Source: Bryobacteraceae bacterium (GTDB taxonomy: Bacteria > Acidobacteriota > Terriglobia > Bryobacterales > Bryobacteraceae). From it: 64,000 bases of DNA. Location: assembly GCA_025928545.1 (NCBI GenBank), contig JAICJH010000029.1, forward strand, positions 1-64,000, written 5' to 3'. Position 1 is the stretch's first letter, and every line of letters begins with the position of its first letter. The translations under genes were made by a program, and so were the position numbers. Of this stretch, positions 10,913 to 14,390 are shown in pieces. The notes below the pieces were generated by a model. It was given only the letters and a program-made list of their open reading frames with translations, had not been told where the DNA came from and made no database searches.

Positions 10913-11572
10913 TCAGCGAGGGCGGCGGGGTCCGCCGCGGTTTCCACCCCTGCCTCCGGGACCACCCCGGCGATCGAAGCGGCCACCACGCTCTCTGTCA
11001 CCGCTGCCCGGCGGTTCCGGGGGACGTCCGAAGCGTGACGGACGAAACGCAGGAGGAGGGGCTTCCGGCAAGGAAGGCATGCCTGCGGGATAGACGATCA
11101 CTCCACGGTAAGGGCCGGAGCCGGAACTTTCGCTGCGCAGTTCGGTCTCATTGCGGAGCGCGATATGGATGATGCGGCGCTCGCGGCTGTTCATCGGAGC
11201 GAAGCGGAAGGGCTGCCCTCCGGACTTCACCTTTTCGGCCGCCGCCTGCGCGGTCATCCGAAGCTCTTCGATGCGCAGCGCGCGGTAGTCGTTGGCGTCG
11301 AAGGCAATGCGCGAATGATCGTCGGAGTGCATGCGCAGGGCTTCCTGCGAAACATGTTCCAGGGCAAGCAGGAGCTCGGCGCGGTTGCTGAGGATCAGGT
11401 CGACATCTTCGCCCGTAAACTTGACGACAAGGTCCGGAGTTTCGAATTCCGGATTGCTCTGGTCGCCGGCTTCGAGCGTGAAGCTGAGCTCAAAACCCGC
11501 GTTCGCGATCACCTGTCGCAGAAACTGCTCGATCCGTGGACCGGTCTCGTGAATCGAATATTTGGGCTTCAA
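10913..11572 (-). CDS. khpB: Jag/KhpB RNA-binding protein with RGG-rich tail
   Basis: 219 residues. A KH-like domain (~45-95, ending in HSRIAFDANDYRALR) is followed by an R3H domain (~95-160) with the signature NSRERRIIHIALRN. Unlike classical Jag there is no long Jag-N domain, and the C-terminus (~178-219) is a Gly/Arg-rich tail with several RGG-type repeats, consistent with extra RNA contacts. The TTG start overlaps the yidC stop as TTGA, indicating coupling. KhpB proteins bind RNA and influence cell division and envelope growth in Gram-positives; in this phylum the role is inferred from conserved linkage to yidC. Confidence 0.88.
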   Translation of the reverse strand: MKPKYSIHETGPRIEQFLRQVIANAGFELSFTLEAGDQSNPEFETPDLVVKFTGEDVDLILSNRAELLLALEHVSQEALRMHSDDHSRIAFDANDYRALRIEELRMTAQAAAEKVKSGGQPFRFAPMNSRERRIIHIALRNETELRSESSGSGPYRGVIVYPAGMPSLPEAPPPAFRPSRFGRPPEPPGSGDRERGGRFDRRGGPGGRGGNRGGPRRPR

Positions 11573-13305
11573 GCCTTCTTCCTGCCATCCTTGATCAGAG
11601 TTGTTTTCGTCATGGCGGGCGTGGTCCGGTTAAAGAACCACTGCTGCGCCACGCCAACTAAATTGCTGGTTAGGTAGTATAACACCACGCCGCTTGAAAG
11701 GTTCCAGAAGAAGATGCCCATCATGACCGGCATGAACTGCATCATTTTCTGCTGGTTGGGATCGCCGCCCGCCGGGGTGGGGGTCATCTTCTGCAACAGC
11801 ACGCTCGAGACGATCATGATGAGCGGCAGAATGTGAATCGCGAAATGTTCGGGCTGGGTGAGATCGGCGACCCACAGCCAGGGCGCGTGGCGCATTTCAA
11901 CGGAAACCGACAGCACCTTGTAAAACGCAAACAGGAAAGGCATCTGGATCAGCATGGGAAGGCATCCACCCATCGGGTTGACGCCGTGCGCTTTGTAGAG
12001 TTCCATGATTTCCGCCTGCTTCTGTTGCGAGCGCGGATCGCTCATGCCGACGCCTTTGTACTTGTCGTTGATCTTCGAGATCTGCGGCTGGAGCACCTGC
12101 ATCTTGCGCATGGACTTCAGGTTCATGATCTTCAGCGGGAACAGAGCGATGTTGATGAAAAGAGTGAGGACGATGATCGACCAGCCGTAGTTGTGGATGA
12201 ACTGGGTCTGAAGCACCCGCAGGATCATGAACAACGGCTGGGCGATGATGCGGAACCAGCCCCAGTCGATTACGTGGCTGAGATTGGGATTGACGGCTTC
12301 GAGGACGTTGCCCTCCTTAGGGCCGACGAACATGCCCAGTTGGTTGCGGGCCTCGCCTCCGGCCGCGATGCCGGGGAACGCATCATCGGTGGCATTGTAG
12401 GCGGTGGGAACGGAGTCGCTGAGGAGCGTCGTCTTGAGAGTGGAATCGACGGGCGGCAGAAACACCGCCGTGAAGTATTGATCTTCCAGGCCCACGAACG
12501 AGAACGAACCGTCGGTGTAGACGGGACCATTCTTCGCGGCCTTTGCCGCGTCGCGATCCAGCTTGTCCTCTTTGAGGTCGTAGCGAATTGCGGCCACATG
12601 GCTGGAGGCATTGGTGACATCCATGTCCCCGAAGCCCGCACGCCAGGAGATCTGATGCGGAAGGCCTGCGCCATCGCGCTTGACCTCATCCGAGAACTGC
12701 ACAAGATAAGTGCTCTGGGTGAAGGCGATGACTTTCTTTGCGACGGTGTGGCCATCGGAATAGTCGTATTCGATGGAGAGGCCGCCACCCTGGGGGCGAG
12801 GTTCCCAGAGAGCCTTGTTGAGCGGGGAGGGCCCTTCGCCGCGGAATTGCAGAGCCAACGGGAAGGCGGTTTTGAGGGCGCCGCGCTGGTTTACGAGTTC
12901 GATCGGCTTTCCGGCGGCATCCTTGTATTTCTTGAGGGTCCAACTTTGAACGACGGCGCCTTCGTTCGATAAAACGACGTGATAGACGTCAGTGTCGACG
13001 GTCCAGGTCTGTTTGTTGGCGGCGGTGGCCAGGGGGGCAACCGAAGCGTCGCCAGACGGGGGCGTTTCTGTCGCGGGCTTCGTCTCGCCGGGCAAGCTGC
13101 CTGGCGTGGAATTGGGCAGGGGCGTAACGGCTTTGGAAGTATCCGTCTTCTTCTGCTGGCTGGTCTGCGGAGTTTCGGCCGGGATGAGACCGAGCTTGTG
13201 GTAGGCCCAGTTCGAGCCGACGAGGATGAGCCCCATCAGGCCGAACGCAATCAGCATGCGTATCTCGCTCGACAGCTCTTTTTTGGGTGGGGTAGAAGGA
13301 CTCAT
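11569..13305 (-). CDS. yidC: Membrane protein insertase YidC
   Basis: 578 residues. An N-terminal transmembrane segment (~14-33), a Ser/Thr/Pro-rich linker, a large periplasmic beta domain (~90-350) and a C-terminal five-helix insertase core are visible (LFMILRVLQTQFIHNYGWSIIVLT, LKSMRKMQVLQPQ, MGGCLPMLIQMPFLFAFYKV, MQFMPVMMGIFFWNLSSGVVLYY). This is the long Gram-negative form. It inserts membrane proteins alone or with Sec. ATG at 13305, eight bases after the yidD stop. Confidence 0.97.
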   Translation of the reverse strand: MSPSTPPKKELSSEIRMLIAFGLMGLILVGSNWAYHKLGLIPAETPQTSQQKKTDTSKAVTPLPNSTPGSLPGETKPATETPPSGDASVAPLATAANKQTWTVDTDVYHVVLSNEGAVVQSWTLKKYKDAAGKPIELVNQRGALKTAFPLALQFRGEGPSPLNKALWEPRPQGGGLSIEYDYSDGHTVAKKVIAFTQSTYLVQFSDEVKRDGAGLPHQISWRAGFGDMDVTNASSHVAAIRYDLKEDKLDRDAAKAAKNGPVYTDGSFSFVGLEDQYFTAVFLPPVDSTLKTTLLSDSVPTAYNATDDAFPGIAAGGEARNQLGMFVGPKEGNVLEAVNPNLSHVIDWGWFRIIAQPLFMILRVLQTQFIHNYGWSIIVLTLFINIALFPLKIMNLKSMRKMQVLQPQISKINDKYKGVGMSDPRSQQKQAEIMELYKAHGVNPMGGCLPMLIQMPFLFAFYKVLSVSVEMRHAPWLWVADLTQPEHFAIHILPLIMIVSSVLLQKMTPTPAGGDPNQQKMMQFMPVMMGIFFWNLSSGVVLYYLTSNLVGVAQQWFFNRTTPAMTKTTLIKDGRKKA

Positions 13306-13313
13306 TCGATTGG

Positions 13314-13538
13314 TTAGCGGGGAACGGGGTCGAAGCCGCCCTCATGAAATGGATGGCAGCGTCCAATGCGCTTCAGGCCGTACCAGACACCGCGCAGGGG
13401 ACCATGGACTTCGATGGATTCGCGCATATATTCCGAGCAGGTGGGGTGATACCGGCAAGCTGAGGGCAGCAGGGGGGAGATCACGCGTTTGTACCCGCGG
13501 AGGGCGGCGGTAAGGCCGGCGATGGCGAGGTTCCGCAT
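13314..13538 (-). CDS. yidD: Membrane protein insertion efficiency factor YidD
   Basis: 74 residues from the ATG at 13538. The signature [20 protein letters not shown] is followed by [32 protein letters not shown], the hallmark of the YidD/DUF37 family. An amphipathic N-terminal helix is expected to associate with the inner face of the membrane. An upstream in-frame extension exists but lies inside rnpA and is not family-like. The first 58 bases overlap the 3' end of rnpA in another frame. Confidence 0.93.
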
Positions 13539-13906
13539 CGTATAAAGAGACGTTTGACTTCGCGCTGAAGATCCGTAAATAAGCAATCGAGCACCTTGCG
13601 ACGGGGATTGAATACGATGGACCACCCTGAATTCAGCGATGCCAGCTCGAGGCGCGCGGCTTCGCGGACCCGCCGACGGATACGGTTTCGTTTGACAGCT
13701 TTGCCGAGGGCTTTGGGAGTGGTGAAGCCGAGCGCGCGCTCGCCTTCCGGATCGGCGAGGCAGAATGCGGCGAACAGAGGACACGTGTAGCGCGTGCCAT
13801 GGTCGTACACTTTTCGGAAATCGCTGGAACGGAGGAGCCGGACACTTTTGGGAAAGCCGGATTTGGACTCGCCTGAGGGCGTGTCCGCTGTGGAGTCGCT
13901 CGTTAT
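13481..13906 (-). CDS. rnpA: RNase P protein component, start codon unresolved
   Basis: The conserved RnpA region is clear: [40 protein letters not shown] (the RNR motif) and [18 protein letters not shown]-like [12 protein letters not shown]. It binds the catalytic RNase P RNA for tRNA 5' maturation. Between the rpmH stop and the conserved region there is no ATG, GTG, TTG or CTG in frame. The coordinates given use an ATA at 13904-13906, which has a GGAGAGG motif eight bases upstream (13915-13921). The frame also runs open through the whole of rpmH to GTG 14092, TTG 14095 and ATG 14212, so a Thermus-like long form enclosing rpmH is the alternative. A Pro/Ser-rich C-terminal tail overlaps yidD by 58 bases. 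Confidence 0.85.
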
Positions 13907-13911
13907 CCGGA

Positions 13912-14061
13912 CTACCTCTCCGAGCTGACAGTCAGCTTCTTGCGGCCCTGGGCGCGGCGGCGGGAGAGAACGGCGCGGCCATCGGCCGTCTTCATGCGTT
14001 TCCGAAAACCGTGCACCTTGGCGCGGCGACGGTTGTTCGGTTGGAAAGTACGTTTCGGCAT
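13912..14061 (-). CDS. rpmH: 50S ribosomal protein L34
   Basis: 49 residues, too short for many gene finders. The sequence starts [20 protein letters not shown] and continues [20 protein letters not shown], an almost textbook L34. It is the first gene of the rpmH-rnpA-yidD-yidC-jag-mnmE cluster. The whole gene lies within a reading frame that is continuous with rnpA. A TATACT hexamer at 14084-14089 could start the transcript about 16 bases before the ATG, leaving little room for a ribosome binding site; none is evident. Confidence 0.95.
13915..13921 (-). promoter_or_regulatory. Shine-Dalgarno-like GGAGAGG upstream of rnpA
   Basis: GGAGAGG overlaps the last codons of rpmH and sits eight bases before the in-frame ATA at 13906. 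Its spacing suits a start at that non-standard codon, and it is the main support for the rnpA start proposed here. Confidence 0.4.
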
Positions 14062-14390
14062 TGTAGTAGTTGGGGGAACTTAAAGTATACACCAAGTAGG
14101 GGTTCTGGCGCTTACCAGTGGTTTCGACAGCCCATTTGGGGCGGGCACCGGAAAAGATGAGGAACGAAACCAATTTGGGGTTAAGTCGTTCTGTTGCAGC
14201 GTCGCTTTGCATAGCTTATCGTCCTCGCTTCGAGGCTAGCAGGCGGGTGGTGGGGGAAAAGGGTCGATTTTTGGCAAGTCGTTGATATCAGGGGAGATTG
14301 AGCTGCAAGTTCGTTGAACTGAATGTGAGGAGCTTGGCTTCCCGAAGGCATTGGTTGCAAACCGGGAAAAGACTAGCCAGAATTTAGAAC
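14062..14390. other. Divergent intergenic region between rpmH and the antitoxin gene
   Basis: A 329-base stretch holding the candidate rpmH -10 element and otherwise no supported gene. It carries a purine-rich segment (14248-14262). No dnaA gene or cluster of DnaA boxes was recognised, although rpmH is often near the origin. Confidence 0.4.
14084..14089 (-). promoter_or_regulatory. Candidate -10 element for the rpmH operon
   Basis: TATACT on the minus strand, 22 bases before the rpmH ATG. No good -35 is visible at 16-18 bases upstream. If used, transcription would begin downstream of the GTG 14092 and TTG 14095 codons, ruling these out as rnpA starts on this transcript. Confidence 0.35.

Follow-up and report, generated by a model that had tools for sequence, protein, structure and literature searches.

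A Putative Isoleucine Start Codon for rnpA Behind rpmH in a Clade of the Bryobacteraceae

The rpmH-rnpA Junction and the Loci Compared

The window (the whole stretch of 64,000 nucleotides that was analysed, from a contig of a Bryobacteraceae bacterium) carries an operon in the order rpmH-rnpA-yidD-yidC (Table 1). Identification of rnpA rests on a match to the PF00825 profile (positions 13535-13855; E 9.5e-24; 86 bits against a curated cut-off of 22.3), which begins exactly at the phenylalanine of the segment FPKSVRLL (codon 13855-13853); the remaining genes carry putative names, assigned from characteristic motifs. The end of rpmH reads ...TCG GAG AGG TAG and is followed by TCCGG and then by ATA (13906-13904), leaving a spacer of 8 nt between the last G of GAGAGG and the first A of ATA. 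At this spacing, pairing of GAGAGG with the 16S tail was estimated at -9.93 kcal/mol, with an assumed tail that may not be the host's. The usual 16S tail would pair with GAGGU. A 16S gene was not found in the window's genome, and the exact tail pattern was absent from the 19 genomes of the genus.

An earlier reading of this DNA (the original prediction) had noted that no in-frame ATG, GTG, TTG or CTG (collectively NTG) exists between the rpmH stop (13912) and FPKSVRLL, and that the rnpA frame (13481-14212) stays open through the whole of rpmH; the sequence bears out both statements. Its list of in-frame starts further upstream (ATG 14212, TTG 14095, GTG 14092) was correct as far as it went, and omitted a TTG at 14173. 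Two origins of RnpA had been offered: a nested arrangement resembling that of Thermus, and initiation at the ATA behind rpmH. Taken in one genome, a short gap devoid of NTG codons is unremarkable. The TATACT that had been held against the upstream starts does lie at 14084-14089, downstream of 14092, but its role as a promoter is a matter of resemblance to a -10 element only, because scanning for sigma-70 sites yielded none that passed. Between 13800 and 14400, neither a promoter nor a terminator was picked up. Folding of the junction RNA was likewise unremarkable (z -0.27).

Table 1. Features at the rpmH-rnpA junction of the window and in the genes downstream.
Feature	Coordinates	Strand	Basis
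rpmH (ribosomal protein L34, 49 aa, ATG...TAG, tail ...TVSSER-stop)	13912..14061	-	ORF and sequence
GAGAGG, Shine-Dalgarno-like site proposed for rnpA, formed by the last two rpmH codons GAG AGG	13915..13920	-	sequence
ATA, proposed rnpA start codon	13904..13906	-	sole in-frame ATH between the rpmH stop and FPK
rnpA (RNase P protein, 141 aa counted from ATA, M-T-S-D-S...-G-F-P-K-S-V-R-L-L)	13481..13906	-	PF00825
yidD, next gene, overlapping the rnpA end; ATG start in the window	13314..13538	-	sequence and aligned start codons
yidC, ordinary ATG start; operon control gene	11569..13305	-	ORF and start class in relatives
TATACT, possible -10 element of an rpmH promoter, 22 nt ahead of the rpmH ATG	14084..14089	-	resemblance only
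rnpA-frame extension upstream through rpmH, probably a chance open frame	13907..14212	-	not kept in most relatives

For comparison, rnpA was read in all 19 genomes of the genus and in part of the family, where 186 genomes had a match (30 loci, 60 regions and further family loci), with other loci being taken from other families of the order and of the phylum. Among loci from named records, 80 of 101 were kept, many of which duplicate other loci; with few exceptions these 80 records are titled Bryobacterales, Bryobacteraceae, Solibacter, Terriglobia, Acidobacteriia or plain Acidobacteria, and the family name used here is taken from those titles. The 247 loci reduced to 165 unique ones before addition of a second phylum set of 40. 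Many of the genomes are metagenome bins. A tree was built from 133 RnpA proteins, leaving out L124 and L141, which have no usable rpmH, and the 30 loci L078-L107; the latter, minus L094 (no rpmH), served as a first phylum set of 29 loci. No rpmH was found in five loci of the second phylum set, of which 35 were thus counted. The phylum controls came from among the matches listed, covering 70 of 112 genomes with a match. Hereafter, ATH denotes ATC, ATA or ATT, and a codon is termed well-placed at a spacing of 4-11 from a Shine-Dalgarno match of -6.5 kcal/mol or better, as scored with the same assumed tail that may not be the host's.

The window falls within a clade of 62 loci (SH-aLRT 84; 113 columns). 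As the rows of this clade are related to one another, the counts given for it are not independent. In all of its loci but two (L221 and L247), rpmH ends early, e.g., in ...TVS(S/D)ER-stop, and much of the remaining family has a longer rpmH tail, such as ...SDERAVRYAK.

A Frame Without NTG Codons and a Conserved ATH

In 39 of the 62 clade loci, no ATG, GTG, TTG or CTG is present anywhere in the open frame upstream of the phenylalanine codon, a situation encountered in 9 of 71 loci from the rest of the order and in none of the 29 from the rest of the phylum. With 19 clade loci, an in-frame stop lies no more than 30 nt upstream of this codon and no NTG follows it, so that very few codons are left from which rnpA could start; the tightest cases leave five or fewer, as with TTC TCC ATC TCT GGT in L044. 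A reachable in-frame ATG, GTG or TTG inside rpmH was found in nine loci. Near the rpmH stop, an NTG is absent in just one (L096) of the 64 further phylum loci with rpmH (29 + 35). As NTG codons do exist ahead of rpmH in the window, the lack of a usable one there is inferred from its relatives.

A well-placed ATH occurs in 50 of the 62 clade loci (ATC 39, ATA 7, ATT 4), and in 33 of the 39 that are free of NTG. Elsewhere it is rare: 2 of 71 loci have it in the remainder of the order, none in the first phylum set (0/29) and 4 of 35 in the second, all four of which also possess an NTG. The ATA proposed at 13906, with GGAGAGG upstream, is supported as the rnpA start by counterparts at the corresponding spacing in most of the clade. 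L015, L017, and L018, which stand closest to the window in the tree, carry the same ATA with the same GAGAGGTAGTCCGG. Both the ATA and the GTC CGG ahead of it are common to L001, L015, L017, and L018.

The site itself is distinguished by codon usage. In all 52 clade rows with rpmH ending in -ER, the last arginine codon is AGG, which is used for other arginines in the same genes at only 8 of 567 positions (counted from the RTFQP motif onward; Fisher 1e-67, with rows that are not independent). AGG is thus the selected codon at this position, and since the last arginine is so written, rpmH ends in GAGAGG or GAAAGG. Both hexamers are in part complementary to the usual 16S tail. Of these 52 rows, 41 have an ATH in frame with rnpA at 5-10 nt after that AGG, compared with 0 and 2 in the other two frames; ATG, GTG or TTG is found there in 0 of 52 in each frame.

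In 36 clade loci, the ATH is located exactly nine bases ahead of the phenylalanine codon. All three relative frames of rpmH and rnpA are represented among them (14, 13, and 9), and hence the position of the ATH is fixed to rnpA while the gap to rpmH changes. In this set, the two codons preceding the ATH have residue entropies of 3.18 and 2.04 bits; the value drops to 0 at the ATH itself, is 1.39 at the next codon (S, A or P only) and 0.18 at the one thereafter (G in 35), and is 0 for F, P, and K; protein conservation begins at the ATH. The F, P, K, and R of FPKxxR are invariant with varying third bases. More generally, 48 of the 50 loci with a well-placed ATH have S, A, P, T or V as the residue following it, with a background of 40% for small residues. 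A small residue is expected behind a removable methionine. With ATC at minus 9, the phenylalanine becomes residue 4 of RnpA; as extrapolated from alignments to 11 solved RNase P chains, it occupies a position between 1 and 6 in ten of them and position 23 in the other.

The association is retained where the junction has been rearranged. With a longer N terminus or a different gap (L004, L041, and L038), an ATH is again found at a purine-rich site, and in L009, L012, and L014, which have lost GAGAGG from the rpmH end, an ATA or ATT lies 24 nt before the phenylalanine codon with a GGGG site; L012 and L014 have, in addition, a TTG or GTG whose site is weak.

A well-placed ATH is missing from 12 of the 62 loci. 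Five of these have an NTG, namely ATG in L128 and L140, GTG in L145 and L221, and CTG in L003. In L005 and L007, GTT stands in place of the ATC of their relatives, with three codons between TGA and GTT, while L148 reads TAG TCA ACG CAC GAG TTT, in which ACG is the best-placed codon and perhaps the start. An ATH is present with a weak site in L013 and L247, and L010 and L142 present no clear start candidate. By its own terms, the original prediction would be contradicted by related genomes with an ATG or GTG start in the same gap. Such codons do occur, in a minority: in L128, L140, and L145 as above, with an ATG, GTG or TTG accompanying the ATH in six further rows (L012, L014, L015, L016, L018, and L189). 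CTG accompanies it in L019, L031, L037, L042, L048, and L129. In two of the rows nearest the window, these codons lie downstream of the ATA, as an in-frame TTG in L015 and as GTG and CTG in L018.

Outside the clade, six loci (L062, L139, L180, L222, L223, and L239) combine a reachable frame free of NTG with no well-placed ATH, and the nearest candidates there are ACG or GTT. In two other groups of the family, CTG is the only NTG near the rnpA start, either at -6 (PLSLPK-like) or at -27/-30 just past the rpmH stop (L165, L167, L169, L186, L214, L225, and L233; L067, L149, L151, L162, L173, L174, L176, and L179).

Other Origins for the RnpA N Terminus

Initiation at a different odd codon near the same site, such as a GTC or ACG beside the ATA, is very improbable. 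The GTT replacing ATC in L005 and L007 and the best-placed ACG of L148 would agree with it, as would the proved GTC start of Streptomyces sigR (PMC5472188). Against this, an ATA is rightly placed in L001, L015, L017, and L018, and in the 36-locus set the stretch ahead of the ATH shows no conservation at the protein level. As GTC CGG is also common to L001, L015, L017, and L018, those four loci alone do not decide against GTC.

The nested arrangement of the original prediction, by which rnpA would start before rpmH (at GTG 14092, TTG 14095 or ATG 14212) to encode a long RnpA around L34, has fared poorly and is now considered very improbable. The window's frame is open to 14212, and L017, L018, and L236 likewise have open frames with NTG codons upstream of rpmH, yet the frame is open in only 13 of the 62 clade loci, and an ATG, GTG or TTG at or upstream of the rpmH start within such a frame is found in only four, at positions that differ from one to another. 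Moreover, the nearest row, L015, reads TCT GAG AGG where the window has TCG GAG AGG; read in frame with rnpA, this gives a TGA, overlapping the first bases of GAGAGG, that shuts the extension. The window contains nothing like the shared site AUGGAUG of Thermus, and TATACT is situated downstream of 14092. Given its presence in only 13 of the 62 loci, the open frame through rpmH is probably the product of chance.

Comparably improbable is an internal start at the CTG of the LL codons or at a later NTG, which would leave FPKxVR untranslated. A CTG is indeed present 6 or 7 codons past the phenylalanine in 18 of 19 rows inspected, but the window is without it and its next NTG is a GTG 45 nt downstream. 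The invariance of F, P, K, and R with varying third bases in 36 rows is that of a translated segment, and in the relative L044 this segment can be aligned, from P2 on, with RNase P proteins of solved structure. Least credible of all is the absence of any start proper to rnpA, with some L34-RnpA fusion arising through readthrough of the rpmH stop codon or frameshifting: although the phenylalanine codon is only 12-17 nt past the rpmH stop in many rows and 13 of the 36 rows with ATH at minus 9 have that stop in frame with rnpA, the two genes occur in every possible relative frame within the clade, so that no single recoding event could serve, and the conservation of ATH and AGG would be left unexplained.

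It is therefore very likely that rnpA, both here and in most of the surrounding clade of Bryobacteraceae, starts at an isoleucine codon 4-11 nt behind a Shine-Dalgarno-like site. With the same high confidence, that codon would be ATA in the window, ATC in most relatives and ATT in some, and the site usually the last two rpmH codons, GAG AGG. For the window, the best reading is a weak start at ATA 13906-13904, directly behind rpmH. Those features of an ATH start that can be read from sequence are found here, namely an NTG-free frame (39/62), Shine-Dalgarno spacing (50/62) and conservation across species.

Proposed Initiation at the ATH and Its Possible Consequences

The clade has not abandoned normal starts, as those of rpmH and yidC demonstrate. 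The rpmH start is ATG in 62 of 62 clade loci, and an ATG, GTG or TTG was found within 30 codons in 50 of 50 yidC genes (ATG in 47), any of the three being accepted and only loci with the N terminus found being counted (50 of 62 in the clade; 35 of 71 elsewhere). A search of the window's genome for tRNA genes returned 48 matches, with ARAGORN calling three Met(cat), one of them of the initiator type, and comparison of the genome's IF3 with solved IF3 gave a normal alignment.

An odd initiator tRNA reading AUH was considered and rejected; no tRNA for an AUH codon was present among the 48 matches, and the sole initiator-type anticodon is CAT. This set of tRNAs is incomplete, for it lacks any Ile tRNA. 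The initiator-type tRNA (G000:C67, L280) has T as its first base opposite A72, forming a Watson-Crick pair; the E. coli initiator tRNA has a C-A mismatch there.

It appears reasonably likely that the ordinary initiator tRNA is used at the ATH and that rnpA is started inefficiently. Ribosomes that have just terminated on rpmH a short distance upstream, or others newly recruited to GAGAGG, would initiate rnpA at low efficiency, such that one mRNA would yield much L34 and little RnpA, with IF3 setting how often rnpA initiation happens. More tentatively, this lineage might have built a graded operon out of start codons, with AUG for rpmH and mostly for yidC, AUH (or GUU, and perhaps ACG) for rnpA, and CUG for yidD in part of the clade.

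Reportedly, pcnB has an AUU start. Other AUH starts include those of infC (AUU in E. coli, ATC in Streptomyces, and AUA in Staphylococcus aureus) and, in S. aureus, ccpN (AUA) and cvfC1 (AUU) (PMC5472188; PMC13009471). Reporters in S. aureus gave approximately 10% of AUG expression from odd codons in one medium and, for ccpN, up to 30% in another (PMC13009471; PMC5472188), and E. coli infC, with its AUU, is described as repressed by IF3 (PMC5472188). The putative rnpA start resembles those of infC, ccpN, and cvfC1 in having an isoleucine codon behind a Shine-Dalgarno site that is conserved across species. It differs from them in that the gene is rnpA, the site is formed by the end of a ribosomal protein gene located upstream, and a single family uses ATC, ATA, ATT, and apparently GTT at this position.

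Further parallels can be drawn with three systems. Streptomyces sigR starts at GTC, as proved by N-terminal sequencing and mutants, and is repressed by IF3 (PMC5472188). It has a non-NTG start, as rnpA would have here, in an operon whose partner is produced in excess (PMC5472188), and its nearest match is the GTT of L005 and L007; the sigR start has been proved, whereas that of rnpA is a predicted one. In Thermus, rpmH is nested in rnpA, and both genes start with AUG and share the one site AUGGAUG (PMC9841429). The same two genes and an unusual rnpA start are involved in both cases, whereas rnpA here would start after rpmH, and a start pair with a shared site was not found in the window. With E. 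coli, ribosomes re-initiate poorly when a Shine-Dalgarno site is missing, and additional IF3 lowers re-initiation, to a lesser degree if such a site is present (PMC2268962). The stop and the next start are again a few bases apart, but the reporters in that study had AUG or mutant initiator tRNAs (PMC2268962), and coupling of rpmH and rnpA here is a putative one.

Very few non-canonical starts of bacteria have been characterised experimentally, and start prediction leans on ATG, GTG, and TTG (PMC5472188). Among the matches listed in the open-licence literature, no title or abstract concerned a non-canonical rnpA start. In genomes of this clade, rnpA may be mis-annotated or missed. Were the operon graded in the way suggested above, weak starts would set the dose of the RNase P protein and thereby place tRNA maturation under the control of IF3 and L34 synthesis. 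A clade-wide isoleucine start in a near-universal gene would also amount to a large collection of natural variants (ATC, ATA, ATT, GTT, moved starts, and ATG or GTG on single branches), permitting tests of the rules of start choice, of IF3 proofreading and of coupling. Starts that are neither NTG nor ATN, as would apply to a few species (GTT in L005 and L007, ACG in L148, and also L223 and L239), would, if true, widen the natural set of bacterial starts.

Two further genes may be mentioned for their start codons. At the aligned yidD start (window 13538), 21 of the 61 loci counted in the clade have CTG (e.g., L044, L033, and L049) and 13 have ATG, with 22 having no NTG at the chosen column, in part as the likely start in the genus is four codons earlier; the rest of the order has ATG in 47 and CTG in none (n = 63). 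In the genus (L248-L266), infC has ATG at its likely start in 19 of 19 genomes, followed by ATT in 17 and by ATC in one, so that the isoleucine codon known elsewhere as the infC start follows an ATG; the window's own genome reads ATG CTT.
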